From contig NZ_CP098740.1 in the NCBI RefSeq assembly GCF_026167665.1, forward strand, positions 4,340,001-4,404,000: a DNA stretch of 64,000 nucleotides, written 5' to 3'. Below the pieces are notes generated by a model. The model was not told where the DNA came from. It saw nothing but the letters and a program-made list of their open reading frames with translations, and did not search any database. Position 1 is the stretch's first letter. The number at the start of each line of letters is the position of its first letter. The position numbers and the translations under genes were made by a program. Shown one piece after another: positions 2,265 to 53,825 of the stretch. The stretch comes from Streptomyces drozdowiczii (GTDB lineage: Bacteria > Actinomycetota > Actinomycetes > Streptomycetales > Streptomycetaceae).

Positions 2265-3370
2265 GTGGCAGTCGTCGATATTTCCGAAGAGCTGAAGTCC
2301 CTCTCCTCGACCATGGGGTCGATCGAGGCCGTCCTGGACCTGGATGCGCTGAGGGGGACATCGCCGTGCTCGAGGAGCAGGCGGCCGCCCCGTCCCTGTG
2401 GGACGACCCCGAGGCGGCGCAGAAGATCACCAGCAAGCTTTCCCACCTCCAGGCCGAGGTCCGCAAGGCCGAGGGCCTGCGCGGCCGGATCGACGACCTC
2501 GAAGTCCTCTTCGAGCTCGCCGAGGCCGAGGGCGACGCCGACGCGCTCGCCGAGGCGGAGGCCGAGCTGGAGTCCGTCCGCAAGGCGCTGGACGAGATGG
2601 AGGTCCGTACCCTCCTCTCCGGCGAGTACGACGCCCGGGAGGCGCTGGTCACCATCCGCGCCGAGGCCGGCGGCGTCGACGCGGCCGACTTCGCCGAGCG
2701 GCTCCAGCGGATGTACCTGCGCTGGGCCGAGCGGCACGGCTACAAGACCGAGGTCTACGAGACCGCTTACGCCGAAGAGGCCGGCATCAAGTCGACCACC
2801 TTCGCCGTCGAGGTGCCGTACGCCTACGGGACGCTCTCCGTCGAGCAGGGCACCCACCGGCTGGTGCGCGTCTCGCCCTTCGACAACCAGGGCCGCCGCC
2901 AGACCTCCTTCGCGGGCGTCGAGGTGCTGCCCGTGGTCGAGCAGACGGACCACGTCGAGATCGACGAGTCCGACCTGCGCGTCGACGTGTACCGCTCCTC
3001 CGGCCCCGGCGGCCAGGGCGTCAACACCACGGACTCCGCGGTGCGCCTGACCCACCTGCCGACCGGCATCGTCGTCTCCTGCCAGAACGAGCGCTCGCAG
3101 ATCCAGAACAAGGCGTCCGCGATGAACGTCCTCCAGGCGAAGCTCCTTGAGCGCCGCCGCCAGGAGGAGCAGGCCAAGATGAACGCCCTCAAGGGCGACG
3201 GCGGCAACTCCTGGGGCAACCAGATGCGCTCCTACGTCCTGCACCCGTACCAGATGGTCAAGGACCTGCGGACGGAGTTCGAGATGGGCAACCCGGACGC
3301 GGTCTTCAACGGCGAGATCGACGGCTTCATCGAGGCCGGTATCCGCTGGCGCAAGCAGAACGAGAAGTAG
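2265..3370 (+). CDS. prfB: Peptide chain release factor 2 (apparent one-base frameshift near residue 31)
   Basis: RF2 releases peptides at UGA and UAA. The N-terminus starts at GTG 2265 ([13 protein letters not shown]) and runs to about 2357. The rest, from [15 protein letters not shown] to IRWRKQNEK, lies one frame away. The GGQ loop ([10 protein letters not shown], about 2998-3027) and full RF2 length are present. Adding one G to the GGGGG at 2353-2357 joins the two parts as [10 protein letters not shown]. This is not the RF2 autoregulatory slip: that needs an in-frame UGA and a +1 shift, whereas here the first frame stays open for 261 codons and the shift needed is -1. As the gene is essential, a sequence error is the likely cause. 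Confidence 0.93.
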
Positions 3371-3496
3371 TCCGATAATCGCCGCAACTCCCCCTGGAAC
3401 AAGGCGCGTCGGCCCGGAACGGGCTTGACGTTCTCCGTGCGCCCGGCGAGGGTGCTCGGGCAGCCCGACGAGAACGGCTCCAGGGGGTAGCGGTAC

Positions 3497-4120
3497 ATGA
3501 CGAAGAAGACGCGCTTACGCGTCGCGCGGACGGCGGCGGGCGCGGTGATCGCCGTCGGCGCGTCGCTGACCGCCGCGGGGGCGGCCCAGGCCGCCGACAT
3601 CGGCGCCGATGTCGCGGGTGTGGAGATCGGCGTACGGCCCACCGCCGAGCCGGGGCACGAGGACCCGGGCGGCGACGGCGACCCGTGCAGCCCGCTCGAC
3701 CCGCGCTGCGAGCCGCCGGAGCCGTCGGCCACCCCGCCGCACCCCTCGGTCCCGCCGACCGGCCCCGCGCGTCCGAGCGAGCCGCCCACGACCCCGGAGG
3801 CCCCGCCCTCGCCGCCCGCGAAGCCCTCGGCCACGCCGACGAAGGCCCCGACGAGGTCCGCGGACCCGGGCGACAGCGGGGACAGCGGCAGTGGCGTCGG
3901 GCAGATCGGGGTCTCCGGCGGCAGCGGGGGCACCACCGACCGCACCGACACCGACTCGGTCGGCAATCAGCCCGTCGAACAGGGCAGGGGCAAGGACGAA
4001 CTCGCCGAGACCGGCGCGGGCGGGACCGCGTTCCTGCTGGTCGGCGCGGCGACGATGGTCGCCGGCGGCATCGGCTTCCGCGTCCTGCCGCGCCTCACGC
4101 GCAAGCGCACGGCCGTCTAG
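3497..4120 (+). CDS. Secreted Pro-rich surface protein with LAETG sortase signal
   Basis: A 207-residue exported protein. It has an N-terminal signal peptide (MTKKTRLRVARTAAG, hydrophobic core, AAQAAD cleavage region) and a low-complexity middle rich in Pro, Ser, Thr and Gly. The C-terminus is a classical sorting signal: LAETG, a hydrophobic helix (TAFLLVGAATMVAGGIGF) and a basic tail ending RKRTAV. LAxTG is the motif used by class E sortases of Streptomyces, so the protein is probably linked to peptidoglycan. The start follows an AGGGGG site (3482-3487). No catalytic domain is visible; a stalk or spacer role is inference. Confidence 0.85.
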   Translation: MTKKTRLRVARTAAGAVIAVGASLTAAGAAQAADIGADVAGVEIGVRPTAEPGHEDPGGDGDPCSPLDPRCEPPEPSATPPHPSVPPTGPARPSEPPTTPEAPPSPPAKPSATPTKAPTRSADPGDSGDSGSGVGQIGVSGGSGGTTDRTDTDSVGNQPVEQGRGKDELAETGAGGTAFLLVGAATMVAGGIGFRVLPRLTRKRTAV

Positions 4121-4126
4121 CGGGCG

Positions 4127-5281: not shown

Positions 5282-5304
5282 GCACCCAGCACTGAAAGGA
5301 CGCC

Positions 5305-6290: not shown

Positions 6291-7477
6291 ATGTCGGACC
6301 CCGAATGTCGCGTCGGGCCCCGCGGTCTGCGCCGCGGGGCGGCCCTGACGCTGGTCTTCGCCGGCGTCCTCGCCACCGGGGCCGCGACCGGCGCGCTGCC
6401 CCGCGGCCAGGCGCAGGAACCCCCGGTGCATCCCCGGTCCGTCGCCGCCACCGCCGACCGCGACGAGGTCGCGGAGGCCGCGGCCGACGCGGTCGCCGAC
6501 GGCAAGTCCGGTACGGAGGCGGCCGAGGAGGTCGTCAGCCGCAGCGGCGACCGCTGGGGCGCGGTCTACGACGAGCGCGAGTACGAGGAGTTCGAGGACG
6601 CCCTCGGCGGCACGTACACCGGGGTCGGCCTCGCCGCCCGCCGCTCCGCCGACGGCCAGGTCGCCGTCGCCCGCATCCAGCCCGGCAGCCCCGCCGACCG
6701 CGCGGGCATCCGCTCCGGCGACCTGCTCCGCACCGTGGACGGCCGCCGGGTCGACCGGCTGCCCGTCTCCGACGTGGTGTCCCTGCTGCGCGGCGACCGC
6801 ACCGGTGCGAAGGCCGGGAGCACGGTCAGCCTCGGCGTCCGCCGGGGCGCCGCCACCCGGACCGAGACGCTGCGCCGGGCCCGGCTCACCGTCGAGTCGG
6901 TGACCGTGCGGCGGATCGGGGCGGAGCGCTCGGGCCCGTCCGGGGCGGTGCGCATCGCGGTCGCCTCGTTCACCAAGGGCTCCGGGGCGGCCGTACGCGA
7001 CGCGGTCCGGGACGCGCCGGCGGGCGCCGGGGTGCTGCTGGACCTGCGGGGCAATCCGGGCGGCCTGGTCACCGAGGCGGTCACCGCCGCCTCCGCCTTC
7101 CTGGACGGCGGCTTGGTCGCCACGTACGACGTGCACGGAGAGCAGCACGCCCTGTACGCGAAGTCGGGCGGGGACACCGAGCGCCCCGTCGTCGTGCTGG
7201 TCGACGGGGGGACGATGAGCGCGGCCGAGCTGGTGACGGGGGCGCTCCAGGACCGGGGCCGGGCGGTGACGGTCGGCTCGCGGACCTTCGGCAAGGGCTC
7301 GGTGCAGATGCCGAGCAAGCTGGCGGGCGGCTCGGTGGCCGAGCTGACCGTGGGCCACTACCGGACACCGGCGGGCCACGGGGTCGACGGCAAGGGCATC
7401 ACACCGGACCTCGCGGTGAGCGCGCGGGCCCAGGAACGGGCCGAGACGGTATTGAGTGGCCTCGGGGCGGGTCGTAG
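6291..7477 (+). CDS. Exported C-terminal-processing (S41) peptidase with PDZ domain; end inferred after a one-base shift
   Basis: A signal peptide (GAALTLVFAGVLATGAATG) is followed by a short helical region, a PDZ domain (GVGLAARRSADGQVAVARI, about 6610-6760) and an S41 catalytic domain. The latter has GGTMSAAELV (nucleophile Ser) and GKGSVQ (general-base Lys). It is a typical CtpA-like serine protease of the cell envelope. As sequenced, the frame runs on to 7844 inside smpB, which is implausible. One extra G in GGGG 7464-7467 gives LSGLGGGS and the TAG at 7475-7477, 18 bases before smpB. ATG 6291 is preferred over GTG 6264. Confidence 0.85.
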
Positions 7478-8106: not shown

Positions 8107-8491
8107 GGGGATGATCGGTTTCGACAGCGGATGTCGAAGCAGGGGAAGCGAGTCGAGGAAGCGGCAATGATCTCGTAAACCATATGTCGCAACCAATAAT
8201 CGCCAATTCCAAGCGCGATTCCTCCGCCTTCGCCCTCGCTGCCTAATTAGCAGCTAAGCGAAGACTCTGCGGAGTGTCAGCCCGGGGGTGATCCCGACCC
8301 GGATCCTGGCATCATCAAGGGATCTAAACTTCTGAGTCCGGTCACGGGTCTCAGAAGGAAATCAAACAGTGACTGGGCCTGTCGGAGGCTTGTCCGCGTG
8401 ACCTCCGAGGCCGAGAAAAGCGTAGCGGACTGCACTCGGAGAAGCCCTGGTTCCGCACCGTTGGACGCGGGTTCGATTCCCGCCATCTCCA
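8107..8491 (+). ncRNA. ssrA: tmRNA (ssrA)
   Basis: The 5' acceptor arm GGGGATG (8107-8113) pairs with CATCTCC (8484-8490) around a T arm (GGGTTCGATTCCC, 8469-8481), giving a tRNA-like end with A8491 as discriminator. The template then reads CAA, so the CCA end must be added after transcription. The resume reading frame runs from GCC 8202 to TAA 8244-8246 and encodes the tag ANSKRDSSAFALAA, whose ALAA end is the usual ClpXP degron. tmRNA rescues stalled ribosomes. A -10-like TACGAT lies at 8053-8058. Confidence 0.95.
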
Positions 8492-8508
8492 CAAATTCCC
8501 ATGTGGGC

Positions 8509-9101: not shown

Positions 9102-11299
9102 ATGACCACCCCTGCCCCCGGGGCAGGCGCAACTCCCACAGGAAGAAGCAGACCCGCCGGCGCAGGCTTCCCATGCGCTACATGCTGCCGCTCCTGTTTC
9201 TCGTTGCCCTGCTCGCCATGCTGATGCTGCGTGGCTACGTGCACAGCGAAATCCTGGCCGACTTCCGCGTCCGGCCCCCCGTCGCGACCGACCGGGTGCC
9301 CGAGCAGGTGCTGGAGGGCGGGCCGGTCATCGACGCCCGCTCCACCACCGAGCCCGCGAAGACCCTGCGCATCCCGGACCACCGGATCGTGCTGACCTTC
9401 GACGACGGCCCGGACCCGGAGTGGACGCCGAAGGTGCTGGACGAGCTGAAGGAGTACGACGCCCACGGCGTCTTCTTCGTCACCGGCACCATGGCCTCGC
9501 GCTACCCGGAGCTGGTCGAGCGCATGGTCAGGGAGGGGCACGAGGTCGGGCTGCACACCTTCAACCACCCCGACCTCTCCTACCAGTCCACCAGCCGCAT
9601 CGACTGGGAGCTCTCCCAGAACCAGCTGGTGCTGGCCGGTGCGGCGGGCATCCGCACCTCGCTCTTCCGGCCGCCCTACTCCTCGTTCGCCGACGCCATG
9701 GACAACAAGTCCTGGCCGGTCACGCAGTACATCGGCAGCCGCGGCTACCTCACCGTCGTCAACAACACGGACAGCGAGGACTGGAAGCGGCCCGGCGTCA
9801 GGGCGATCATCGACCGGGCCACGCCCAAGCACGGCAAGGGCGCGATCATCCTGATGCACGACTCCGGGGGGAACCGGTCCCAGACCGTCACCGCCCTGGG
9901 GAAGTTCCTGCCGAAGATGCAGAAGCAGGGATACACGTTCGACAACCTCACCGACGCGCTCGGCGCACCCAGCGCGCACACCCCGGTCACCGGTTTCGAC
10001 CTGTGGAAGGGCAAGGCGTTCGTCTGGGCCGTGGGCGTCTCGGAGCACATCACCGATGTGATGGTGGCCGGGCTCGCCGTCATCGGGGTGCTGGTCTTCG
10101 CCCGCTTCGGGCTGATGCTCGTACTCTCCTTCGTCCACGCCCGCCGGGTCCGCGGACGCGGCTTCCGCTGGGGCGAACCCGTCACCCGCACGGTGACCGT
10201 CCTGGTGCCCGCGTACAACGAGAAGAAGTGCATCGCGAACACGGTGCGCTCGCTCCTGGCAAGTGACTATCCGGTCGAAGTCATCGTGATCGACGACGGC
10301 TCCACGGACGGCACCGCGGACATCGTCCAGCGGATGCGGCTGCCCAACGTCCGGGTGGTCCGCCAGCGCAACGCGGGCAAGCCCGCCGCCCTGAACAACG
10401 GCATCGCGCACGCTCGCAACGACATCATCGTGATGATGGACGGCGACACGGTCTTCGAGCCGACCACCGTCCGCGAGCTGGTGCAGCCCTTCGGCGACCC
10501 GCGCGTCGGGGCCGTCGCCGGCAACGCCAAGGTCGGCAACCGCGACTCGCTGATCGGCGCCTGGCAGCACATCGAATACGTGATGGGCTTCAACCTCGAC
10601 CGCCGCATGTACGACGTGCTGCGCTGCATGCCCACCATCCCCGGCGCGGTCGGGGCCTTCCGGCGCGAGGCGCTGGAGCGGGTCGGCGGCATCAGCGAGG
10701 ACACCCTCGCCGAGGACACCGACGTCACGATGGCCATGCACCGGGACGGCTGGCGCGTCGTCTACGCGGAGAACGCCCGCGCCTGGACCGAGGCGCCCGA
10801 GACCGTGCAGCAGCTCTGGTCCCAGCGCTACCGCTGGTCGTACGGCACCATGCAGGCGATCTGGAAGCACCGCAGGGCGGTCATCGAGCGCGGGCCCTCG
10901 GGCCGGTTCGGCCGCGTCGGACTCCCGTTCGTCTCGCTGTTCATGGTCGTCGCCCCGCTGCTCGCCCCGCTCATCGACGTCTTCCTGCTGTACGGGCTCG
11001 TGTTCGGGCCCACCGAGAAGACCGTCGGCGCGTGGCTCGGCGTCCTCGCGGTGCAGCTGGTCTGTGCCGCGTACGCCTTCCGACTCGACCGGGAGCGCAT
11101 GACCCATCTGCTCTCGCTGCCCCTCCAGCAGGTCCTGTACCGGCAGCTCATGTACGTGGTGCTGCTCCAGTCCTGGATCACCGCTCTCACCGGCGGCCGG
11201 CTGCGCTGGCAGAAGCTGCGCCGTACCGGGGTCGTCGAGGCGCCCGGCGCGATGCCGCCCCAGCGGGCGCGCACCCAGGACCGGAGGCCCGTCGCATGA
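9102..11299 (+). CDS. matB: MatB-like bifunctional polysaccharide deacetylase / family 2 glycosyltransferase
   Basis: A two-domain membrane enzyme for a PNAG-like glycan. After an N-terminal helix (RYMLPLLFLVALLAMLML) comes an extracellular NodB deacetylase with TFDDGPD, HTFNHPD, RPPYSS and LMHDS. A helix near 10050-10130 leads to a cytoplasmic GT2 domain with VLVPAYNE, DDGSTDGT, MDGDT, EDTDV and QRYRW, then C-terminal helices. ATG 9173 is the first start in the main frame, but ATG 9102 (MTTPAPGAGA), abutting the matA stop, joins it if one A is added at 9131-9132; this yields the basic NSHRKKQTRRRRLP before the helix. I prefer 9102. The fusion of synthase and deacetylase is diagnostic of MatB. 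Confidence 0.88.
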
Positions 11300-23086: not shown

Positions 23087-23646
23087 ATGACCGAGGTGTC
23101 CTCGCTCACAGGGCGGCTGCTCGTGGCCGCGCCCGCCCTGGCGGACCCGAACTTCGACCGCGCGGTGGTGCTGCTCCTCGACCACGACGAGGAGGGCTCC
23201 CTCGGCGTGGTCCTCAACCGGCCGACCCCGGTGGGCGTCGTGGACATCCTGGCGGCCTGGGCCGGACTGACCGGTGAGCCGGAGGTCGTCTTCCAGGGCG
23301 GACCGGTCTCGCTGGACTCCGCCCTCGGGGTCGCCGTGATCCCGGGCGGCGAGGGCCCCTCGGCTGGCGCCGGGTGTACGGGGCGATCGGCCTGGTGGAC
23401 CTGGAGGCGCCGCCCGAGCTGCTGGCGGCGGCCGTGGGCTCGCTGCGGATCTTCGCGGGGTACGCGGGCTGGGGGCCGGGACAGCTGGAGCGCGAGCTGT
23501 CCGAGGGCGCCTGGTACGTGGTGGAATCGGAGCCCGGTGACGTGTCCTCGCCACGCCCGGAGGGCCTGTGGCGTGCGGTCCTGCGCCGGCAGCGCAGCGA
23601 ACTGGCCATGATCGCCACGTATCCGGACGACCCTTCGCTGAACTGA
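23087..23646 (+). CDS. YqgE/AlgH family protein (apparent one-base frameshift)
   Basis: An approximately 186-residue protein of the UPF0301 family, function unknown. The N-terminal half starts at ATG 23087 (MTEVSSLTGRLLVAAP) and includes FQGGPVSLDSALGV. The C-terminal half (YGAIGLVDLEAPPELLAAAV to YPDDPSLN) lies in another frame. One extra C in CCCC 23356-23359 restores GEGPLGWRRVYGAIG, a normal family join. Both halves are well conserved, so a sequence error is more likely than a pseudogene. Confidence 0.88.
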
Positions 23647-24102: not shown

Positions 24103-24130
24103 TGTCGCCGCCCCCAACCCCACCTACTCT
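24102..24130 (+). promoter_or_regulatory. Predicted promoter of the amino-sugar ABC transporter operon
   Basis: TTGTCG (24102-24107), a 17-bp spacer and TACTCT (24125-24130) form a good HrdB-type promoter. Transcription would begin near 24137, giving a leader of about 60 bases. The dre site ends at the first -35 base. Confidence 0.55.
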
Positions 24131-24197
24131 CCTGCCTGTTGTGCAGAACGAAACGTACGTTGCGTATGCTGCAACGCTGACCGGTAGGGGTTCCCGG

Positions 24198-25502
24198 ATG
24201 AAGTTCTCTGCCCGAATCGCCGCCCCGGCCGCGGCGCTCGTCCTGGCGGGCCTCACCGCCACCGCCTGCGCGCCGCAGACCTCCGACACCGGAGCCGAGG
24301 GCGACGAGAAGACCGGCACGCTGCGGGTCTGGCTGTTCCAGGAGGTCGGCAACAAGCCGAAGGAGAAGGTGGTCGACACCGCGGTCGCCGCCTTCAGGAA
24401 GGCCCACGAGGGCGCGAAGGTCGAGATCGAGTACATCCCGGTCGAGACCCGCGCCCAGCGCGTCAAGGCCGCCTTCAACGACCCGAAGAGCGCCCCCGAC
24501 CTCATCGAGTACGGCAACACCGACACCGCCGGTTACGTGAAGGACGGCGGGCTCGCCGACATCACCTCCGAGTTCGGTGCCTGGGCCGACGCCGAGGACA
24601 CCGACCCGGCCGCCAAGCAGTCCGTCACGGTCGACGGCAAGGTCTACGGGGCCCCGCTCTTCGTCGGCGTACGCGCGCTCTACTACCGCACCGACGTCTT
24701 CGCGGACCTGGGCATCCAGCCGCCCAAGTCCCAGGCCGAACTGATCTCCACCGCGAAGAAGATCCACCAGAAGAAGCCGGACCTCTACGGGCTCGCCGTC
24801 GGCGGCGCCTACACCTACGGCGCGATGCCGTTCATCTGGGCCAACGGCGGCGAACTGGCCGACCGGGACGGCTCCTCGTACACGTCGGCCATCAACAGCG
24901 CGAAGGCCCGCAAGGGCATCGAGGCGTACACCTCGCTCTTCGGCGCCGACAACTGCCCGCCCGCCAAGTGCGCGGCCATGGGCGGCAACGCGACCGTCAC
25001 CGCCTTCGCCTCCGGCAAGGCCGCCATGGCCATCGGCGGCGACTTCAGCCACACGGCCGTCGAGGCCGGAAGCGTCAAGGGCAAGTACGCCGTCGTCCCG
25101 CTGCCCGGCGTCGCAGAGGGCTCCATAGCCCCCGCCTTCGCGGGCGGCAACAACATCGGCGTGCTGAAGAGCAGCGGCCACCGCACCCTCGCCGTAGACC
25201 TGATGAAGGAGCTGACCGGCAAGGCGTCCCAGGCCCGCATGTTCGACGCGATGGGCTTCCTGCCGACCTACACCGACGTCCGCGCCGCCGCCGCGAAGCG
25301 CGAGCCGTTCGTCGAGCCCTTCGTCAAGACGCTCGGCGCCGGAGCCAAGTTCGTGCCCGCCTCCCCGGCCTGGGGGCAGATCGACTCCTCGCTGATCCTG
25401 CCCACCATGTTCCAGGAGATCGTCAGCGGCCGTAAGGACGTGGCGAAGGCGGCCGACGACGCCGCGAAGAAGATGGACGCGGCGTTCGCCGACGCGGGCT
25501 GA
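24198..25502 (+). CDS. Sugar ABC transporter substrate-binding lipoprotein (amino-sugar type)
   Basis: A 434-residue extracellular solute-binding protein (family 1, MalE-like). The signal peptide ends in a lipobox (LTATAC, Cys lipidated), followed by a mature domain with RVWLFQEVGN, APDLIEYGN and PLFVGVRALYYRTDVF. It captures an oligosaccharide and delivers it to the two permeases next to it. The dre operator and downstream GH20 gene suggest N-acetylglucosamine oligomers or other hexosaminides. ATG 24198 is the only start giving a proper signal peptide. No ATPase gene is present; a shared MsiK-type ATPase is expected. Confidence 0.9.
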   Translation: MKFSARIAAPAAALVLAGLTATACAPQTSDTGAEGDEKTGTLRVWLFQEVGNKPKEKVVDTAVAAFRKAHEGAKVEIEYIPVETRAQRVKAAFNDPKSAPDLIEYGNTDTAGYVKDGGLADITSEFGAWADAEDTDPAAKQSVTVDGKVYGAPLFVGVRALYYRTDVFADLGIQPPKSQAELISTAKKIHQKKPDLYGLAVGGAYTYGAMPFIWANGGELADRDGSSYTSAINSAKARKGIEAYTSLFGADNCPPAKCAAMGGNATVTAFASGKAAMAIGGDFSHTAVEAGSVKGKYAVVPLPGVAEGSIAPAFAGGNNIGVLKSSGHRTLAVDLMKELTGKASQARMFDAMGFLPTYTDVRAAAAKREPFVEPFVKTLGAGAKFVPASPAWGQIDSSLILPTMFQEIVSGRKDVAKAADDAAKKMDAAFADAG

Positions 25503-27307: not shown

Positions 27308-28938
27308 ATGAACATGGATCTGATCCCGGCCCCCGCGCGCGCCGGTGACCAGGGGCGCTGCGGATTCCTGCTGGACGAGTCCACCACCGTCGCGGCGGCT
27401 CCCGGCACCGAGACCACCGAACGCTGGCTGCGCGCCACCCTCGGCGCGGCCTTCGGCGTGCCGCTCGCACCGGGCGCCGAGGGCGCGCGGCGGTCCATCC
27501 GGCTGCGCATCGACGAGACCCTGCCCGCCGAGGGCTACCGGCTCACCACCCTGCCCGACGAGAGCGTCGCCATCACCGGCGGCAGCCCCGCCGGGGTGTT
27601 CTGGGGCGCCCAGACCCTGCGTCAGCTGCTGGGCCCGCGGGCCTTCCGGAAGGCGCCGACGGACGGCGGCACGGCAGCCTTCGGGTTCACCGACATCGAG
27701 GACGCGCCCCGCTTCGGCTGGCGCGGCCTGATGCTCGACGTGGCACGGCACTTCATGCCCAAGGACGACGTCCTGCGCTACCTCGACCTGCTCGCCGCGC
27801 ACAAGCTGAACGTCTTCCACTTCCACCTCAGCGACGACCAGGGCTGGCGCGTCGAGATCAAGCGGTACCCGCGCCTCACCGAGATCGGCGCCTGGCGCCC
27901 CCGTACCAAGTACGGACACCGGGCCTCCGAGCTGTGGGACGAGACCCCGCACGGCGGTTACTACACCCAGGACGACATCCGCGAGATCGTCGCCTACGCC
28001 GCCGCCCGGCACATCCGGGTCGTCCCCGAGATCGACATCCCCGGCCACTCGCAGGCCGCGATCAGCGCCTACCCGGAGCTGGGCAACACCGACGTCATCG
28101 ACACCTCGGCGCTCGGCGTCTGGGACAACTGGGGCGTCACACCGAACGTCCTGGCCCCCACCGACCACGTCCTGCGGTTCTACGAGGGCGTCTTCGAGGA
28201 ACTCCTCGACCTCTTCCCGCCGGAGACCTCGCCGTTCGTCCACGTCGGCGGCGACGAGTGCCCCAAGGACCAGTGGAAGCAGTCGCCCGCCGCGCAGGCC
28301 CGCATCAAGGAACTCGGGCTTGCCGACGAGGACGAGCTCCAGTCCTGGTTCATCCGCCACTTCGACACCTGGCTCACCGCGCGAGGCCGCCGCCTCATCG
28401 GCTGGGACGAGATCCTGGAGGGCGGCCTCGCCCCCGGCGCCGCCGTCTCCTCCTGGCGGGGTTACGCGGGCGGCATCGCGGCCGCCGAGGCCGGGCACGA
28501 CGTGGTCATGTGCCCGGAGCAGCAGGTTTATCTGGACCACCGTCAGGACGGCGGCCCCGACGAGCCGATGCCCATCGGGTACGTCCGCACCCTGGAGGAC
28601 GTCTACCGCTTCGAACCCGTTCCGCCGTCCCTGGGCGAGGAGGCGGCACGGCACGTCCTCGGCACCCAGGCCAACGCCTGGTCCGAGGTCATGCAGAACC
28701 GGGCCCGCGTGGACTACCAGGTCTTCCCCCGCCTCGCCGCCTTCGCCGAGGTCGCCTGGTCCGCCCTGCCCGCCCCGGACGAACGGGACTTCGCCGGTTT
28801 CGAGCGCCGCATGACCGCCCACTACGCCCGACTCGACGCCCTCGGCGTCGGCTACCGGCCGCCGTCCGGACCGCTGCCCTGGCAGCAGCGCCCCGGCGTC
28901 CTCGGACGCCCGATCGAGGGGGCACCCCGAACGTGTGA
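27308..28938 (+). CDS. Beta-N-acetylhexosaminidase, GH20 (one-base shift at the very end)
   Basis: An approximately 543-residue glycosidase releasing terminal GlcNAc/GalNAc. An N-terminal GH20b domain precedes the catalytic barrel with FHFHLSDDQGWR, PEIDIPGHS and the catalytic pair HVGGDE. No signal peptide is visible, so it probably works in the cytoplasm on sugars imported by the three upstream gene products. As sequenced the frame reads on to 29104 through a terminator. One extra C in CCCC 28925-28928 gives the natural end GAPPNV and TGA at 28936-28938. Confidence 0.92.
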
Positions 28939-28960
28939 GCCCGGCCCCAACCCGCTCTCC

Positions 28961-28991
28961 CGCCACCACGGCCCCTGCGACCGTGGTGGCG
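28961..28991 (+). terminator. Terminator of the transporter-hexosaminidase operon
   Basis: A perfect 11-bp stem (28961-28971 with 28981-28991) and a 9-base loop lie 22 bases after the corrected hexosaminidase stop. GCGGCGTTTCCC follows. Its place supports ending that gene at 28938. The rest of the gap to 29244 shows no gene; TTGACG at 29105 could be a -35 element. Confidence 0.8.
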
Positions 28992-29244
28992 GCGGCGTTT
29001 CCCGACTGCCTTTCCTGGCAAGGGAGAAAGCCGTACGAAGACGCGTAGGACCGGCAAAGGGCGCTCACCGCCGAACCGGCGCGAAAACGGGACCATTACC
29101 CTGAACGTTGACGGATACACCCTTCGCGGACCTGCGCGTCGGGCCGGTCCGAAGATGTGCCAGAGTTGCCACGTCCGGGCTTCGAGCACGTACCGTACGG
29201 CGAAACAGGCGGGAGCGCCGGGACACCGGGAAGGGGCAGCTGGG

Positions 29245-30137
29245 TTGACCACGCACGCACCGCAGGCGACGCAGTCCGTGACGCTGCCTGCCTCGCTGGA
29301 CGAGGCGGTGGCGGCACTCGGCGCCATGCCGGCCGCCGTCCCCGTGGCAGGCGGCACGGACCTGATGGCGGCCGTCAACAAGGGGCTCCTGCGCCCCTCC
29401 GGTCTGGTCGGACTCGGCCGGATCAGCGAGCTGCGCGGCTGGCACTACCAGGACGGGCACGCCCTCCTGGGCGCCGGCCTGACCCACGCCCGCATGGGGC
29501 GGCCCGACTTCGCCGCCCTCATCCCCGCGCTCGCCGCCTCCGCCCGCGCCGCGGGCCCCCGCAGATCCGCAACGCCGGCACGCTCGGCGGCAACATCGCG
29601 ACCGCCGCCCGACCGGGGACGCGCTGCCCGTGCTCGCCGCCCTGGAGGCCGAGCTGGTCATCGCCGGACCCGGCGGCGCCCGCCGCGAGATCCCCGTCTC
29701 CCATCTGCTGGTCGGCCGCGAGATGCTGGAGCCCGCCGAGTTGATCGGCTTCGTCCGGGTGCCCCTGCTGCACGCCCCGCAGGTGTTCCTCAAGGCCACC
29801 GGCCGCACCGGCCCGGGCCGCGCCACCGCCTCCGTCGCGATCGTCCTCGACCCGGCCAGGCGCGGGGTGCGCTGCGCGGTCGGCGCCATCGCCCCGATGC
29901 CGCTGCGCCCGCTGGAGGCGGAGCGCTGGATCGCCTCGCTCATCGACTGGGACGGGGCGCGCGGCCTGGCCCCCGACGCGCTGGCCGCCTTCGGCGAGTA
30001 CGTCGCGGCCGCCTGCATCCCGGACCAGGAACCACCCGCCGACGGGGAGAGGCGCCACCGCTGCCCCCGCCGTACTGCACCTGCGGCGCACCGTCGCCGC
30101 GCTCGCCCGACGCGCGCTGGGAAGGGCACTGTCGTGA
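29245..30137 (+). CDS. Molybdenum hydroxylase FAD-binding subunit (four apparent one-base deletions)
   Basis: The medium subunit (CoxM/XdhB type) of a molybdenum hydroxylase, about 298 residues after correction; it passes electrons from the Fe-S clusters to FAD. The FAD motifs AGGTDLMAAV and IRNAGTLGGNIATA are present, and the CO-dehydrogenase C-terminal domain continues to ALGRALS. TTG 29245 starts it behind AAGGGG at 29231-29236. Four frame changes, all in the sense of a missing base, occur at CCCCC 29556-29560, CCC 29608-29610, GAGAGG near 30049 and CCCCC 30064-30068. Corrected, the TGA at 30135-30137 overlaps the next GTG. Either the local sequence is poor or the gene is decaying. Confidence 0.85.
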
Positions 30138-31627
30138 GCAAGGAGAACCCCGCCGAGCAGCAGCAGCACGGCGGCTGGCAGCCGACCCCGCAGAGCGACT
30201 ACGACGGCGACGCGACGGCCTTCGTCCAGCTGCCGCCGGAGGACCTGGCGGACATCCCGCTGGCCGCGCCCGGCCACGGCTACACCCCGCCGATGATCCT
30301 GCCGCTGACCCCCGCCGCCGACCGCGACCCGGCGGCCACCGGCAACTGGACCGTCCAGACCCCGGAGCAGCAGCCCGGGCAGCCCGCGCCGGACGCGGTG
30401 CACTGGCCCGACCCGAACCAGCAGTCCGGCTACGGCTATCCGCACCCCGAGGACCAGCAGCACACCGGCTCGTACCAGGAGCCGTACGGTACGGACCACG
30501 CCGCCACGGGCCAGTGGTCGGTGGACACCTCCTCCTGGCCGGCCCCGTCCGCCCCGCTCTCCGACGACTCCGGCGAGCTGTACACCCCGCCCCCCGTCGC
30601 CGACTGGTACGCGGACCGCCCGGCCACGCTGCCCGGGGGCGCCCCGGCGCCCTGGGCGGTGCCGGACGCGGCCGAGGCCGCGGAGCCGGTGGCGGGTGAC
30701 CCCGCCGATGCCCCCGTCGATGCCCCGGCCGACGCGCGGACGGACGTCCAGGCCGACGCCCAGGCCGCGGGCCCCGCCGACGCCCCGGCCGACGCGCGGG
30801 CGGACGTCCAGGTCGGCGTCCCCGCCGAGAGCGCTCCCGAGGCGCCGGATGCGGCTGACATCGAGCAGTCCGCGCCGGGCCCGGAGGCCGACGCGCCCGG
30901 CACCGAGCCCGCCGCCGAGCCCGCCGCCGAGGCTGTGCCGGAGCCGGAAACGCCCGAGGCGGAGGATGCCGCCCAGCCCGCGGAGGTGCCCGAGGACCCG
31001 GCCCCGGAGGGGCCCCCGCTGCCCAGCGAGCACCCCGCCGCCTCGTACGTCCTGCACGTCAACGGCGTCGACCGGCCCGTCACGGACGCCTGGATCGGCG
31101 AGTCCCTGCTCTACGTGCTGCGCGAGCGCCTCGGCCTCGCCGGCGCCAAGGACGGCTGCTCGCAGGGCGAGTGCGGGGCGTGCAACGTCCAGGTGGACGG
31201 GCGGCTCGTCGCCTCCTGCCTGGTGCCCGCCGCCACGACCGCCGGCAGCGAGGTCCGTACGGTCGAGGGCCTGGCCGTCGACGGCGAACCCTCCGACGTG
31301 CAGCGGGCGCTGGCGGACTGCGGCGCCGTCCAGTGCGGCTTCTGCATCCCCGGCATGGCGATGACCGTCCACGACCTCCTGGAGGGCAACCACCGCCCCA
31401 GCGAGCTGGAGACCCGCCGGGCGCTGTGCGGCAACCTCTGCCGCTGCTCCGGCTACCGGGGCGTCCTGGACGCCGTCAACGAGGTCATCGCGGGCCGCGA
31501 GGCCGCCGCCGAAGCCGCCGCCGAGGAGACCGGGGGCGGCGAGCCGGAGGAGCCCCGCATCCCGCACCAGGCGGCGCCGGGCGCCGGTAGTGTGCAGGCC
31601 CACCAGCAGGACGGAGGCATGGCGTGA
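30134..31627 (+). CDS. Molybdenum hydroxylase 2Fe-2S subunit with a 300-residue low-complexity N-terminal extension
   Basis: A 497-residue protein. The last 190 residues are a normal small subunit: a plant-type ferredoxin (CSQGECGACNVQVDG) and a helical 2Fe-2S domain (QCGFCIPGM, CGNLCRC). The first 300 residues are unusual, rich in Gln/Pro/Tyr at first and then in Ala/Asp/Pro repeats such as DAPADART and DAPADARA. Family members are commonly about 160-200 residues. GTG 30134 overlaps the FAD gene stop and the TGA overlaps the Mo-subunit GTG, so all three subunits are coupled. The extension could tether or crowd the enzyme; its role is unknown. Confidence 0.88.
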   Translation: MSKENPAEQQQHGGWQPTPQSDYDGDATAFVQLPPEDLADIPLAAPGHGYTPPMILPLTPAADRDPAATGNWTVQTPEQQPGQPAPDAVHWPDPNQQSGYGYPHPEDQQHTGSYQEPYGTDHAATGQWSVDTSSWPAPSAPLSDDSGELYTPPPVADWYADRPATLPGGAPAPWAVPDAAEAAEPVAGDPADAPVDAPADARTDVQADAQAAGPADAPADARADVQVGVPAESAPEAPDAADIEQSAPGPEADAPGTEPAAEPAAEAVPEPETPEAEDAAQPAEVPEDPAPEGPPLPSEHPAASYVLHVNGVDRPVTDAWIGESLLYVLRERLGLAGAKDGCSQGECGACNVQVDGRLVASCLVPAATTAGSEVRTVEGLAVDGEPSDVQRALADCGAVQCGFCIPGMAMTVHDLLEGNHRPSELETRRALCGNLCRCSGYRGVLDAVNEVIAGREAAAEAAAEETGGGEPEEPRIPHQAAPGAGSVQAHQQDGGMA

Positions 31628-33959
31628 GCAACGACGCGGCCGGCGCCACCCCCACGACGATCAGCATCCCGTCGCCGGCCGGCCCGGGCGGACCCGAGGC
31701 CGAGCAGCCGCGGCTCGGCATCGGCGCCTCGCTGCCGCCGGCCGACGCCCGCGCCAAGACCGAGGGCACCTTCCCGTACGCCGCCGACCTGTGGGCCGAG
31801 GGCCTGCTCTGGGCGGCCGTCCTGCGCTCCCCGCACGCGCACGCCCGCATCGTCTCCATCGACACCTCGGCCGCCGCCGAGATGCCCGGGGTGCGCGCGG
31901 TCGTCACCCACGAGGACGTCCCGGGCGAGGCCCTGTACGGCCGCAAGGTCGTGGACCGCCCCGTCTTCGCCGCCGACCTGGTCCGCCACCACGGCGAGCC
32001 GATCGCCGCCGTCGCCGCCGACCACCCCGACACCGCCCGGCTCGCCGCCGCCGCGATCGCCGTCGAGTACGAGGTGCTGGACCCGGTCACCGACCCGGAG
32101 AAGGCGTTCGAGGCCGAGCCCCTGCACCCCGACGGCAACCTCATCCGCCACATCCCGCTGCGCTACGGCGACCCTGAGGCGGTCGGCGAGGTCGTCGTGG
32201 ACGGGCTGTACCGCATCGGCCGCCAGGACCCCGCCCCGATCGGCGCGGAGGCCGGGCTCGCCGTGCCCCGCCCGGACGGCGGCGTCGAGCTGTACACCGC
32301 GTCCACGGACCCGCACACCGACCGCGACCTGGCCGCCGCCTGCTTCGGCCTCGAACCGGAGCGGGTCAAAATCGTCGTCACCGGAGTCCCCGGCGCGACC
32401 GGCGACCGCGAGGACCCCGCCTTCCAGCTGCCGCTGGGCCTGCTCGCCCTGCGCACCGGCTGCCCGGTCAAGCTGGCCGCCACCCGCGAGGAGTCGTTCC
32501 TCGGCCACGCCCACCGCCACCCGACCCTGCTGCGCTACCGCCACCACGCGGACGCGGAGGGCCGCCTGGTCAAGGTGGAGGCCCAGATCCTGCTGGACGC
32601 GGGCGCCTACGCGGACGCCTCGTCGGAGTCGCTGGCCGCCGCGGTCGCCTTCGCCTGCGGCCCGTACGTCGTGCCGCACGCCTTCATCGAGGGCTGGGCC
32701 GTCCGTACGAACAACCCGCCCTCCGGCCATGTCCGGGGCGAGGGCGCGATGCAGGTCTGCGCCGCCTACGAGGGCCAGATGGACAAGCTGGCCGCGAAGC
32801 TGGGGATCGACCCGGCCGAGCTGCGCATGCGCAACGTGCTGGCCACCGGCGACATCCTGCCGACCGGGCAGACCGTGACCTGCCCCGCGCCCGTCGCCGA
32901 ACTGCTCACCGCCGTCCGCGACCACCCGCTGCCCGCCCTGCCCAAGGACGCCCCGGAGGACGACTGGCTGCTGCCGGGCGGCCCGAGGGCGCGGGCGAAC
33001 CGGGCGCGGTGCGGCGGGGCGTGGGGTACGCGCTGGGCATGGTCCACATGCTGGGCGCGGAGGGCGCCGACGAGGTGTCCACCGCCACGGTCCGGGTCCA
33101 CGACTCGGTCGCCACCGTCATCTGCGCCGCCGTCGAGACGGGCCAGGGCTTCTCCACGCTGGCCCGCCAGGTCGTCCAGGAGACCCTGGGCGTCGAGGAG
33201 GTGCACGTCGCCTCGGTCGACACCGACCAGCCCCCGGCGGGCGCCGCCACGCACGGCCGCCACACCTGGGTCTCCGCCGGAGCGGTCGAACGCGCCGCGA
33301 AGATGGTCCGCACCCAGCTCCTCCAGCCCCTGGCGCACAAGTTCGGGATGTCCACGGAGCTGCTCCAGATCACGGACGGCAAGATCACCTCGTACGACGG
33401 GGTGCTCTCCACGACCGTGTCGGAGGCGCTGGACGGCAAGGAGCTGTGGGCCACCGCGCAGTGCCGCCCGCACCCCACCGAGCCGCTGGACGAGTCCGGG
33501 CAGGGCGACGCCTTCGTGGGCATGGCCTTCTGCGCGGTCCGCGCGGTGGTGGACGTCGACGTCGAGCTGGGCTCGGTCCGGGTGGTCGAGATGGCCGTCG
33601 CCCAGGACGTCGGCCGCGTCCTCAACCCGTCCCAGCTGGCGACCCGCATCGAGGCGGGCGTCACCCAGGGCATCGGTGCCGCCCTCACCGAGAACCTCCG
33701 CACCGCCCGCGGTCTGGTCCGTCACCCGGACCTCACCGGCTACGCCCTGCCGACCTCGCTGGACGCGCCGGAGATCCGCATCGTGAAACTGGTCGAGGAG
33801 CGCGACGTGGTCGCCCCGTTCGGCGCGAAGCCCGCGTCGGCGGTCCCGGTCGTGACCTCCCCGGCCGCGGTGGCCGCGGCGGTCCGCGCGGCGACCGGCC
33901 GCCCGGTCAACCGCCTCCCGATCCGCCCCCAGGCGGCGGTGGCGGCCCCGAAGGGCTGA
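31624..33959 (+). CDS. Molybdenum hydroxylase catalytic (molybdopterin) subunit, xanthine dehydrogenase family (one apparent frameshift)
   Basis: The approximately 778-residue large subunit (CoxL/XdhA type) that oxidises its substrate at Mo. An N-terminal a/b hammerhead (GTFPYAADLWAEGLLWAAVL) precedes Mo-cofactor segments such as VRGEGAMQ and GQGFSTLARQV, and the late GQGDAFVGMAF and AQDVGRVLNPSQ. The frame changes at CCC 32982-32984, where one added C restores LLPGGPEGAGEPGAVRRGVG. GTG 31624 overlaps the previous stop. The substrate (purine, aldehyde or other heterocycle) cannot be read from the sequence. Confidence 0.87.
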
Positions 33960-37747: not shown

Positions 37748-38126
37748 TTGTCGATCAATGAACCGGCCGAAAAAATTTTCACGGTGAGTTAACCGTGGTT
37801 CACATCCGGTCTACGGAGCGTCGCGGGAGAGTCGGCCGACCTGGACGCGCGTAGATGCGCGATGAACGCTCCGCGCGCCGCTGACCGGCACTTATGCTCG
37901 TGCCGCGCAACCGGGTTTTCGCGGGCGACCGGATTCTGGACGAGGTCTTCCGCTGAGCGGACTCCCTCGCTACTGTCCAAAAAATGTGAACGCCCCGTGG
38001 CAATGTGGCCGCGGAGCGCAGCCGGTGCCTTGGCCAGGCCGGCGGCCTCTCCGTGCGTCGCCCCGGGACCGGTGGCGCACATCCCACGGGACAGCCGCGG
38101 CCGCTCACCACGGAGGAGAGGGCGTC
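37748..38126. other. Long regulatory region upstream of the IclR gene
   Basis: No gene is convincing in this gap. It holds an inverted repeat CACGGT-n6-ACCGTG (37780-37797) next to AAAAAATTTT, a possible IclR-family operator. A weak promoter-like pair follows: TTCCGC (37948-37953), 17 bases, TACTGT (37971-37976). An in-frame upstream extension of the IclR protein from 37986 is unlikely because GGAGGAGAG lies before GTG 38127. Confidence 0.4.
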
Positions 38127-49015: not shown

Positions 49016-50038
49016 ATGAGCGCCCCAACCCCGGCACCCGGTGACGAGAGCCCTGGCGAGGGGTACTACCCCGACCCGTCCATCCCCGGTTACGTCCGCT
49101 ACTGGAACGGCGCCTCCTGGGTGCCCGGCACCAGCCGCCCGGCCCCCGCACAGGCGGAGCCTGCGGTGGTCGAGGAGACCGGGCCGGTGTTCCTGGACGA
49201 GGAGGGCCAGGAGGACGGCCGCCCCGAGCCCGCCATCGCCTGGCAGGCCGACGCCTCCCACCAGTCCGGCTTCGCCGGTGACCGGGACCGCGTGTCGTGG
49301 CCGGAGGCCCCGGACGCCCCGGCCCCCGAGGAGGCGAGGCCCCCCGCGCAGAGGGTTCCGTCCTCAAGCGCCGGACGGGCTGGGTTGCCCGAGCCTGCCC
49401 GGACGCAGCAGCCCGTTCAAGCCCGTCCGGCGCTTGAGGACGGAACCGGTACGCCGGACCCGGCTGAAGGCACGTTGACCCTGCGCACGCGCCCCGCGCC
49501 GGTCACCCCCTGGACGCCCCCCGCCAATGACCCCTTCGGGGATCTCGCGCGGACCCAGGGCCGCCCCGCCCCGCTCGGCAAGCGGTTCCTCGCCCGGCTC
49601 ATCGACACCGTCGTGCTCGGTGCGCTCACCGCCGCGGCCGCCGTGCCGCTCGCCGGCCGCGCCGTGGACCACATCGACGGGAAGATCGACGCGGCCAGGC
49701 AGACCGGCGAGACGGTCACCGTCTGGCTGCTGGACTCCACCACGGCCGCGCTGGGCGGCGCGCTGCTGGGCGTGTTCCTGCTGCTGGGCGTCCTGCTCGA
49801 CGCGGTGCCGACCGCCAAGTGGGGCCGTACGCTCGGCAAGAAGCTGTGCGGCATCGACGTACGGGACATCGAGTCCCACGAGACCCCCGGCTTCGGCGCC
49901 GCCCTGCGCCGGTGGTTGGTGTACGGCGTGCCGGGCCTCCTGGTCGTCGGGATCGCCGGCGTGCTGTGGTGCCTGGTGGACCGGCCCTGGCGCCAGTGCT
50001 GGCACGACAAGGCGGCCCGGACCTTCGTCGCGGGCTGA
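49016..50038 (+). CDS. RDD-family membrane protein with DUF2510-like N-terminus and an inserted palindromic element
   Basis: A 340-residue protein. The N-terminal motif YYPDPSIPGYVRYWNGASW is DUF2510-like. A 130-residue acidic/Pro linker leads to a C-terminal RDD domain with helices (FLARLIDTVVLGALTAAAAV, GGALLGVFLLLGVLLDAV) and the signature GRTLGKKLCGIDVRD. RDD proteins are poorly understood and some move Na+. In the linker a 94-bp palindromic repeat is translated in frame (49354-49447). ATG 49016 follows GTG 49013; either could start. A second RDD gene follows. Confidence 0.87.
   Translation: MSAPTPAPGDESPGEGYYPDPSIPGYVRYWNGASWVPGTSRPAPAQAEPAVVEETGPVFLDEEGQEDGRPEPAIAWQADASHQSGFAGDRDRVSWPEAPDAPAPEEARPPAQRVPSSSAGRAGLPEPARTQQPVQARPALEDGTGTPDPAEGTLTLRTRPAPVTPWTPPANDPFGDLARTQGRPAPLGKRFLARLIDTVVLGALTAAAAVPLAGRAVDHIDGKIDAARQTGETVTVWLLDSTTAALGGALLGVFLLLGVLLDAVPTAKWGRTLGKKLCGIDVRDIESHETPGFGAALRRWLVYGVPGLLVVGIAGVLWCLVDRPWRQCWHDKAARTFVAG
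49354..49447. repeat. Perfect 28-bp inverted repeat inside an RDD coding sequence
   Basis: Arms 49354-49381 and 49420-49447 are exact reverse complements around a 38-base loop. The arm core, GTCCTCAAGCGCCGGACGGG and its complement, resembles a palindrome I recall as common between Streptomyces genes. Here it lies in a translated linker (PSSSAGRAG ... RPALEDG) and keeps the frame. Confidence 0.88.
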
Positions 50039-50114
50039 CACCATCCGCCGAACGGCGTCCCCCGAACGCACCTGAGCCGTTGCGGGGCCCCGGGCCCCGC
50101 GATGCACTGCCCCC

Positions 50115-51060: not shown

Positions 51061-51429
51061 GGCGTTTTCCGTCCTCGGGACGTCGGATGGGCGGTCTCTC
51101 GACACGGTCGCGCTGTCAAGCGACCCTATGACGGTGGATGCCCTGGAGGAACGGGTGGTAAGCGTAACCTAACCCACAGTACCGGTGCATGGGGGGCGCA
51201 CGGAGTCATCTCCCGCGCCCTTGGGGAGGGTTGACGCGCCGGTGAACCGCGAACGCCTCGTCCGCATAGCGGAACGGTGCTCCTGCATAGTGCACTTGCT
51301 CCGTTCAAGTCAAGGTCTGTCTTTTCTTCCGTAACTCCGGTCGAATGTCGTCACTTGTGACGCGTTTCCGCGCGCGGCCTCTCCACACTCCCGGGCCGTC
51401 GCCGCGGGCGCCGGGGAGGACTGCATCAA
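51061..51429. other. Intergenic region before the M6 protease gene
   Basis: No gene is supported in this 369-base gap between divergent genes. It is relatively AT-rich for this genome near 51290-51350 (GTCTTTTCTTCCGTAACTCC), where the protease promoter probably lies. GGGGAGGAC at 51412-51420 is the ribosome site. Confidence 0.5.
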
Positions 51430-53825
51430 GTGATCATTAAGAGACGGGCGCTTAGGACCGGAGCGGTTGTCGTGGCCATGGCCGCGACCGCCGCGACCGC
51501 ATCCGCCTTCGCCACCGCTCAGGCAGATGACCAGGCGTCAGGCGCCGCTGCCTCCGTCGACCGCCGGGACCCGGGGTCGGCCAAGGGCAACGACCACGAC
51601 CTGGAGGGCCCGTTCAGCAAGCAGCAGGCCGCTCAGCGCCAGGCTGCCCTGGAACAGGTCATATCCGGCGACAAGAAGGTGTCGTCGCGCGGAGGCTCCA
51701 AGGTCGTCAAGCTCGACAGCAACAAGTACGTCGAGCTCGGCCGTGAGAAGACCGACAAGATCTTCACCGTGCTGGTGGAGTTCGGCGACAAGGTCGACGA
51801 CACGACCATGTACGACCCCGACGGCGCGGGCCCCAAGCCCCCGTCAAGAAGTACGGCGGCACGCCGGGCCCGCTGCACAACAAGATAGCCAAGCCGGACC
51901 CGAAGAAGGACAACAGCACCGCCTGGCAGGCCGATTACAACCAGGCCCACTTCCAGGAGCTGTACTTCGGCACGGGTGCGGGCAAGCACTCCCTGAAGAC
52001 GTACTACGAGAAGACCTCGTCCGGCCGCTACTCGGTCGACGGCGAGGTCTCCGACTGGGTCAAGGTCCCGTACAACGAGGCGCGCTACGGCTCGAACTAC
52101 TGCGGTTCGACCAACTGCGCCAACGCCTGGGACATGATCAAGGACGGCGTCAACGCCTGGGCCGCGGACCAGAAGGCCAAGGGCCGTACGCCGGAGCAGA
52201 TCAAGGCGGACCTGGCGCAGTACGACCAGTGGGACCGCTACGACTACGACAACGACGGCAACTTCAACGAGCCCGACGGCTACATCGATCACTTCCAGAT
52301 CGTGCACGCGGGTGAGGACGAGTCCGCCGGCGGCGGCGTCGAGGGCACCAACGCCATCTGGGCGCACCGCTGGTACGCGTACGGCACCAACGCCGGCGCC
52401 ACCGGCCCGGCGGACAACAAGGCCGGCGGCACCGAGATCGGCGACTCCGGCATCTGGGTCGGCGACTACACCGCGCAGCCCGAGAACGGCGGCCTGGGCG
52501 TCTTCGCCCACGAGTACGGCCACGACCTCGGCCTCCCGGACCTGTACGACACGACCAACACCGCCGAGAACTCGGTCGGCTTCTGGTCGCTGATGTCGGC
52601 GGGCTCCTGGCTCGGCACCGGCAAGGACAGCATCGGGGACATGCCCGGTGACATGACCGCCTGGGACAAGCTCCAGCTGGGCTGGCTGAACTACGCCGAG
52701 GCCAAGGCCGCGACGAAGTCCACCCACAAGCTGGGCGTGTCCGAGTACAACACCAAGGACAAGCAGGCGCTCGTCGTCGAGCTGCCGAAGAAGGCCGTCA
52801 CCACCGCCGTCACGACGCCCGCCGAGGGCGCCAAGCAGTGGTGGAGCGACATGGGCGACAACCTCAGCAACACGCTGTCGCGTCCCGTCGACCTCACCGG
52901 CAAGTCCAAGGCGTCCCTGGACCTCCAGGGCTGGTGGGACATCGAGAAGGACTACGACTACCTCTACACCGAGGTGTCCACCAACGGCGGCACCAGCTGG
53001 ACCGCGATCGACGGCACCGCCGACGGTCAGCCGATCCCGCGCGACGCCAGTGACAAGCCGGCCCTGACCGACGTCTCCGGCAAGTACCAGAAGCTGTCGT
53101 ACCCGCTGGACGCCTACGCGGGCCAGAAGATCGACATCCGCTTCCGTTACGCCACCGACGGCGGCGCGGGCGGCGTGGGCTTCGCGGCCGACACCATCTC
53201 GGTGACCGCCGACGGCACCGCGCTCTTCACGGACAACGCCGAGGGCGACGACAACGGCTGGACCAGCAAGGGCTTCTCGCGGGTCGGCAAGTCGTTCGAG
53301 AAGGACTACCCGCAGTACTACCTCGCGGAGAACCGTCAGTACGTCAGCTACGACGAGACGCTGAAGACGGGCCCGTACAACTTCGGGTTCTCCACCACCC
53401 GTCCGGACTGGGTCGAGCACTTCCCGTACCAGAACGGTCTGCTGGTCTGGCTCTGGGACACCTCCCAGAAGGACAACAACGTCTCGCAGCACCCGGGCCA
53501 GGGCCTGATCCTGCCGGTGGACGCGCACGCCAAGCCTCTGAAGTGGGCGAACGGCTCGATCATCCGCAACAAGATCCAGCCCTTCGACGCGCCGTTCAGC
53601 TGGTACCCGACGGACGGCTTCACGCTGCACCTGGCCGACCAGGCCGTGAAGATCAAGCCGCAGCTCGGCATCCCGGCCTTCGACGACCACAAGGGCACCT
53701 ACTGGTACAAGGAGAACCCGACCGGAAGCGTCAAGGTTCCTGACACCAACACCAAGATCACGATCGTCAGCGAGCCGCTCAGCGGCGACACGATGACCGT
53801 CCAGGTCGGTGCCTCGAAGAAGTAA
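51430..53825 (+). CDS. Secreted immune-inhibitor-A-type M6 metalloprotease (one apparent frameshift)
   Basis: An approximately 798-residue exported zinc protease after correction. The signal peptide (GAVVVAMAATAATASAFATA) is followed by a prodomain and the catalytic domain with HEYGHDLGLPD (HExxHxxGxxD, 52507-52540), the Met-turn region SLMSAGSW and a C-terminal beta-rich domain (FRYATDGGAGGVGFAAD). M6 enzymes degrade extracellular proteins. The frame changes at CCCCC 51838-51842; one added C gives GPKPPVKKYGGTPGPLHNK, the normal family sequence. GTG 51430 follows GGGGAGGAC. Confidence 0.9.

Follow-up and report, generated by a model that had tools for sequence, protein, structure and literature searches.

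One-base losses at G/C runs in a single-contig Streptomyces assembly, very probably consensus sequencing errors

A report on PacBio-only Streptomyces assemblies (PMC6923854) describes homopolymer indels with the same signature as the one considered here, and names G and C stretches as the source of error. The present assembly is from the same genus; its error rate looks higher (about a thousand losses genome-wide by rough extrapolation), and its platform we can only infer. Two accounts of long-read-only bacterial assemblies likewise describe homopolymer-length indels that fragment genes, and in the Kastor example given there the errors were mostly false deletions, with A/T runs giving the commonest errors (PMC8812927; PMC12007338). 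Here, in contrast, G/C runs were affected, and long A/T runs are few in this genome. A biological counterpart is the programmed +1 frameshift of release factor 2 (RF2, encoded by prfB), which our case resembles in that prfB changes frame within its first tenth; unlike that system, the site studied here has no in-frame stop, and the relatives have no frameshift.

Frame changes in the window

We analysed a window of 64,000 nucleotides, to which all positions refer, from a 7.39-Mb single-contig Streptomyces assembly. The first-pass annotation had described at least eleven one-base losses in eight genes, all in one direction and nearly always at C or G runs. These 11 sites were examined by DNA alignment with relatives, and support is given below as the number of relatives one base longer over the number covering the site. 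One relative, CB01249 (95.4% identity), has a range spanning 6 of the 11 sites. Since several relatives look nearly identical to one another, the support counts are not all independent.

2353..2357, + strand: prfB, peptide chain release factor 2; codon 30 of 368; 5/5
7464..7467, + strand: S41 family protease with PDZ domain (Pfam Peptidase_S41), about 4 codons short of the native stop; 5/5
9115..9119, + strand: matB-like gene with polysaccharide deacetylase and GT2 glycosyltransferase Pfam domains; codon 5; 3/3
23356..23359, + strand: yqgE/AlgH family gene; codon 123 of 218; 5/5
28925..28928, + strand: GH20 beta-hexosaminidase (Glyco_hydro_20), about 4 codons short of the native stop; 9/9
29556..29560, + strand: FAD subunit of a xanthine-dehydrogenase-type enzyme, first frame change; codon 173 of 366; 11/11
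29608..29610, + strand: FAD subunit, second frame change; codon 190; 11/11
30044..30047, + strand: FAD subunit, third frame change; codon 336; 11/11
30064..30068, + strand: FAD subunit, fourth frame change; codon 343; 11/11
32982..32984, + strand: molybdenum subunit (xanthine dehydrogenase, pucD-like); codon 454 of 778; 10/10
51838..51842 (51841 in the alignment), + strand: M6 (InhA-like) metalloprotease; about codon 137 of 798; 5/5
38061..38064, no strand: twelfth shortened C run, in non-coding DNA upstream of where a gene for an IclR-type regulator probably starts; 9/10

All eleven coding losses were recovered, every covering relative being longer (3/3 to 11/11), and each of them falls in or at a G/C run. 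Most of the positions originally given also held; the exception is the gene that we take to be matB, where the loss is at 9115, about 16 bases upstream of the 9131-9132 first proposed. The third frame change of the FAD subunit was placed at 30044, the earlier position being about 30049.

Profile matches were broken accordingly at several sites. In the window sequence the prfB profile TIGR00020 was matched solely from profile position 23 onward, the DUF179/AlgH halves of yqgE matched in two frames (profile positions 1-66 and 104-155), and the FAD_binding_5 match of the FAD subunit stopped at 98 of 170 profile positions. MoCoBD_1 and MoCoBD_2 of the molybdenum subunit fall in different frames, the pucD profile being matched over 9-433 of 763, and the two pieces of the M6 protease, searched separately, match different parts of Peptidase_M6. 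At 3 of the 11 sites little protein is altered, namely the S41 and GH20 genes (about 4 codons before the stop) and matB (codon 5).

Run length and direction of the differences

The losses rose with the length of the G/C run in the relatives. Counting unique sites, one base was missing from 4 of 1333 runs of three, 2 of 324 runs of four, 5 of 64 runs of five and 5 of 11 runs of six (0.3%, 0.6%, 7.8% and 45%, respectively). This rise was absent from the two control genomes, in which the corresponding counts were 3/981, 0/234, 1/59 and 0/6 (G171) and 1/562, 0/132, 0/23 and 1/3 (G132, with the one loss in three at length six). None of the 13 A/T runs of at least four was changed. Whole-genome depletion of long runs gave a mixed result: per 100 kb, G/C runs of at least six numbered 20.3 in the window and about 21 in random stretches totalling 380 kb, compared with about 30 in the named relatives; the next 200 kb of the same genome, however, gave 36, so that long G/C runs are not uniformly rarer across the genome than in these relatives. 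Stretch L052 overlaps L060-L061, so 20 kb is counted twice across two sets; it was excluded from these density counts.

The direction of the differences was equally uneven, and the excess of losses in the window is not due to chance. Of 27 window sites that passed a multi-relative alignment filter, 22 lacked a base and 5 had an extra one, as against 8 and 6 in G171, 9 and 12 in G005, and 5 and 6 in G019 under the same filter. The five extra sites are 8256, which sits within the tmRNA gene, 8493, 8525, 8630 and 33974; in alignments with the relatives, the called protein genes of the window contained no majority-supported one-base excess. Comparison with single relatives added a few further extra bases within or close to called genes, of which only the one at 48796, close to a start, was isolated. 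For isolated one-base differences that fall well within the relatives' genes, the window showed 29 lacking and 0 extra, a figure pooled over six relatives in which the same sites are counted repeatedly; with other genomes as query the counts were 3 and 1 (CB01249), 1 and 0 (sp. 2131.1), 0 and 0 (col6) and 2 and 2 (G171). When all one-base differences were counted, non-coding ones included, the window was not separated from other pairs: CB01249 against the window gave 7 lacking and 2 extra, and in two other CB01249 pairs, where CB01249 was the shorter, the counts were 7/2 and 5/1. The differences in CB01249 pairs were mostly non-coding or near starts.

A simple count of frame changes by TBLASTN was noisy, with 21 in 154 tests for the window and 12/154 (G005), 10/159 (G019), 9/141 (G015) and 7/133 (G009) for the controls. 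Among the control changes, four are the window's prfB shift viewed from the opposite side, four reflect a loss within a kinase gene of G005 itself, and many of the rest are close to gene starts. When 264 kb were aligned with G005 by a frameshift-aware method and the result was filtered, 127 genes showed 18 lack-one and 2 lack-two events, together with 5 extra-one and 3 extra-two; the reverse direction (126 genes) showed 13 extra-one, 6 lack-one and 1 extra-two. On inspection, several of the 18 lack-one events fall upstream of genes. With close relatives, 159 gene alignments yielded 38 lack-one and 6 lack-two events, together with 6 extra-one and 2 extra-two; 8 of the 11 sites were placed with at least two references, and the three near gene ends were missed. 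With G171 as control target, 109 gene alignments yielded 14 extra-one and 2 extra-two events, together with 7 lack-one and 2 lack-two.

Occurrence across the assembly and preferred explanation

Outside the window, a frame-tracking HMM at its strict setting found 38 losses and 5 extra bases over 600 kb of this genome, compared with 4 and 1 in 697 kb of the named relatives; the control sets take in training material (G012 and half of G009). Of the 38 losses, 29 were near a G/C run of at least four, against 20-22% of random places, and sites were found in 14 of 20 random 20-kb stretches. Sensitivity on the known window sites was 5/11 at the loose setting and 3/11 at the strict one. The only extra base reported in the window at the strict setting, 29592, falls between two losses whose combined effect on the frame equals that of one extra base. 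Very roughly, losses would number of the order of a thousand genome-wide.

We consider it highly probable (about 97%) that these are consensus sequencing errors that leave G/C runs one base short across the chromosome, the organism's real genes being intact. Under-called homopolymers had been proposed in the first-pass annotation, and the confinement of the losses to runs, their length dependence, their blindness to coding and the matching excess in other parts of the assembly all support that proposal; that the assembly is unpolished seems likely. Base calling or consensus building of what is probably a long-read-only assembly would drop one base from G/C runs of 4-6, with a probability that climbs steeply with run length and takes no account of whether a run is in a gene, and true reads would be expected to carry the longer runs. 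Such drops would occur chromosome-wide and clump where read support is presumably thin. The losses do clump, with 5 of the 11 inside a stretch of 1,150 bp (run-length-weighted P = 0.0003), and this hints at thin or poor read support there; because uneven support is an added assumption, the clumping counts in part against an artefact. The uneven density of long G/C runs, the counts of all one-base differences and the partial dependence among relatives also weigh on that side. GC-driven dropout as the cause of clumping found no support, mean GC near the sites not being significantly above that of other runs (P 0.17-0.22).

The losses are almost certainly a biologically ordinary artefact, but gene annotation in this assembly is unreliable, of which its users should be warned. 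Extrapolation suggests that false frameshifts may be present in an appreciable fraction of its genes, and caution is therefore needed over gene ends, start sites and pseudogene calls. Other single-contig high-GC assemblies can be diagnosed quickly against a reference by tabulating losses by run length.

Alternative readings

The frameshifts might instead be truly carried by the strain, being either recent mutations or marks of pseudogenes, such as a mutator or a degraded laboratory stock might show. The bases are indeed absent from the deposited sequence, and the xanthine dehydrogenase subunits and the M6 protease are probably dispensable. However, prfB, an essential gene, is affected in the same manner, the losses track run length, and the excess recurs in 14 of the 20 random stretches. 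Eleven of the 12 shortened G/C runs of at least four are coding in a window that is 87% coding by HMM; this share matches blind placement, which counts against real mutation. Beyond the shifts, substitutions were 35 at third codon positions and 12 at others (before them, 36 and 31; 7 of 11 sites usable), and the FAD subunit segments lean likewise to third positions. Judged by these substitutions, the sequence past the shifts still evolves like intact coding sequence, with no decay. Pseudogene decay was rejected on this codon-position bias, although taken alone it is compatible with very recent loss. Overall, we regard real mutation as very improbable. Extremely improbable is a reading in which the DNA shifts are real but either programmed ribosomal frameshifting or slippage during transcription corrects them at G/C runs, with prfB akin to RF2 autoregulation: prfB is the classic programmed-frameshifting gene and its site is near codon 30, but the RF2 mechanism requires a stop at the shift site, whereas the window's first prfB frame stays open over 2265-3050 with no stop at the site and the relatives' prfB is a single open frame across it. 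RF2-type frameshifting in prfB was rejected on these grounds; against correction in general stand the eight unrelated genes affected and the run-length dependence. Least credible of all, and close to negligible, is that the short G/C runs are real and that a genome-wide frameshift load, prfB included, is tolerated through transcriptional or translational slippage at the runs.

It is highly improbable that part of the set, chiefly the sites close to gene ends (S41, GH20 and the start of matB), reflects natural variation in length which the proteins tolerate. Such sites alter just the last or first few codons, and natural one-base differences do exist between relatives, mostly outside genes or near starts; nevertheless, the longer run is kept by all covering relatives at S41 (5/5), GH20 (9/9) and matB (3/3), and the pattern at gene-end sites is the same as at mid-gene sites. 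The non-coding run at 38061 may be natural variation, since one relative, sp. 2131.1, shares the short run in alignment; as it lies upstream of the likely IclR-type start, the list of coding sites in the first-pass annotation stands.

Missing bases in eight genes

Eleven one-base deletions in eight genes had been proposed for this window. When it was aligned with up to 12 relatives all eleven were present, and every covering relative had the longer run at each site. In first alignments with four relatives the base was absent in 8 of 9 stretches, the matB stretch being ambiguous and the M6 protease left out of the set. The matB shift, placed earlier at 9131, is present but lies at 9115.

Sites at which the window is one base short: position, gene, covering relatives one base longer, and codon of the shift counted in the relatives' proteins
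2353, prfB (release factor 2): 5/5, codon 30/368
7464, S41 protease: 5/5, 4 codons before the protein end
9115, matB: 3/3, codon 5/732
23356, yqgE (YqgE/AlgH): 5/5, codon 123/218
28925, GH20 hexosaminidase: 9/9, 4 codons before the protein end
29556, FAD subunit, shift 1: 11/11, codon 173/366
29608, FAD subunit, shift 2: 11/11, codon 190/366
30044, FAD subunit, shift 3: 11/11, codon 336/366
30064, FAD subunit, shift 4: 11/11, codon 343/366
32982, Mo subunit: 10/10, codon 454/778
51841, M6 protease: 5/5, codon 137/798

The relative's called S41 frame (247 aa) is under the expected length, and only its end was used for the codon position. Pfam and NCBIfam supplied the names release factor 2, S41 protease, YqgE/AlgH, GH20 and, for the M6 protease, InhA-like; they describe the matB product as a polysaccharide deacetylase plus glycosyltransferase and place the FAD and molybdenum subunits in a xanthine-dehydrogenase-type enzyme. 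In yqgE, the Mo subunit and M6 the domains are divided between frames.

The window occupies positions 4,340,001-4,404,000 of its genome, a single contig of 7,386,614 bases (completeness 99.64). For one intact gene the 80 best named relatives were retained, and 75 of them carry the name Streptomyces. We found prfB matches at 87-93% in 23 of the 24 same-genus relatives searched, the exception, G017, giving weak, partial matches only. Pairwise comparison with Streptomyces sp. CB01249 (95.4% identity over 20,157 aligned columns; positions numbered by the base preceding the gap) showed the window one base shorter, with good flanks, at 28924, 29555, 29607, 30043, 30063, 32981 and 38060, all within G/C runs, and one base longer at 37775 and 43821, both outside called genes. 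A filter asking for agreement from two or more relatives, making up at least 60% of those covering, retained 27 window sites. Besides the coding sites these include 16 others (11 lacking a base, 38061 among them, and 5 with an extra one), situated in the spaces separating protein genes, close to called starts or, for 8256, within the tmRNA gene.

Run length, direction and placement

Counting each site once and requiring six identical bases on either side, we found the relatives' G/C runs of three, four, five and six one base short in the window in 4/1,333, 2/324, 5/64 and 5/11 cases. The corresponding counts were 3/981, 0/234, 1/59 and 0/6 in control genome G171, and 1/562, 0/132, 0/23 and 1/3 in G132. 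Isolated one-base differences well inside the relatives' genes, pooled over relatives, comprised 29 lacking and 0 extra in the window; other queries gave 3/1 (CB01249), 1/0 (sp. 2131.1), 0/0 (col6) and 2/2 (G171). Window counts were 24/13 outside genes and 12/1 near starts; without regard to genes, one-base totals were also skewed in other pairs, CB01249 being the shorter member. Eleven of the 12 shortened G/C runs of four or more are coding and the HMM coding share of the window is 87%, so the losses are blind to coding. From the run-length rates one would expect about 23 losses across the window, more than the 12 seen in comparable runs.

Five of the 11 sites are packed into a 1,150-bp part of the GH20-FAD region (28925-30068). 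The probability of this is P = 0.0004 when sites are drawn from runs of at least four bases, and 0.0003 when the draw is weighted by run length. Local GC was tested and does not account for this clumping, and further clumps of HMM matches occur in two other stretches analysed (5 in L050, 5 in L062). The clumped losses suggest patchy read support.

Decay of the sequence past the shifts was considered and rejected: at 7 of the 11 sites, substitutions beyond the shift numbered 35 at third positions and 12 at others (36 and 31 before it), and the third-position lean also appears in the FAD segments.

Spread over the genome

A three-periodic HMM allowing frame slips was run at strict and looser settings, recovering 3/11 and 5/11 of the known window sites. 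Strict lack/extra counts were 15/3 in the next 200 kb, 23/2 in 400 kb of random stretches of this genome, and 4/1 in 697 kb of named relatives; controls gave 3/3 in 280 kb (G005) and, in 80 kb each, 2/2 (G019), 1/0 (G015), 0/1 (G012), 1/0 (G009) and 0/0 (G171). Looser counts were 26/4, 44/4 and 22/3, with controls at 16/8, 5/4, 2/0, 4/2, 5/1 and 2/0 in the same order. Outside the window, 29 of 38 strict lack sites have a G/C run of at least four bases nearby (random places, 20-22%). Runs of six or more showed no depletion in the next 200 kb, a result that counts against under-calling. Scaling 11 per 64 kb gives roughly 1,270 losses genome-wide, and the HMM (random-stretch rate minus named-relatives rate, divided by recovery in the window) roughly 1,270 to 1,400, both estimates resting on small counts.

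The first-pass annotation had attributed the frame changes to under-called homopolymers, and length dependence, direction, wide occurrence, absence of decay and blindness to coding all bear this out. When PacBio-only assemblies of three Streptomyces genomes were compared with Illumina-corrected ones, 70, 295 and 335 differences emerged, and single-base insertions in homopolymers made up the great majority (PMC6923854). In bacterial assemblies built from long reads only, wrong homopolymer lengths are described as the commonest errors that remain (PMC8812927), and most indels in one example assembly as false deletions (PMC12007338). The window pattern behaves like, and fits, such an artefact, and the frame changes are almost certainly not a biological feature.

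Other length differences and repeats

The window also holds a tRNA-Cys gene and the tmRNA gene (8107-8492); at 8256, inside the latter, it is one base longer than 4/5 covering relatives, either a natural difference or an opposite error. In G005 (stretches L020-L023, joined coordinate about 2030) the Ser/Thr kinase gene upstream of prfB is apparently one base short, backed by 4/4 reference genomes and 2/2 covering relatives. Short length differences at 24120-24200 and 4399, common to some relatives, look like natural variation, not error. After the FAD domain, 30396-31022 aligns poorly between relatives (G005 and G019 alignments break off, then restart), with several length differences at 30709-30835 even against CB01249; it is perhaps a variable linker ahead of the iron-sulphur domain.

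An intergenic perfect 28-nt inverted repeat (arms 49354-49381 and 49420-49447, 38 nt between) contains a 22-base part that recurs 65 times in the genome when as many as 2 mismatches are allowed, 33 times in forward and 32 in reverse orientation, against 0 for the reversed control. The copies are often near one another, and pieces match many places in the relatives G132 and G171; the repeat belongs to a dispersed palindromic family.
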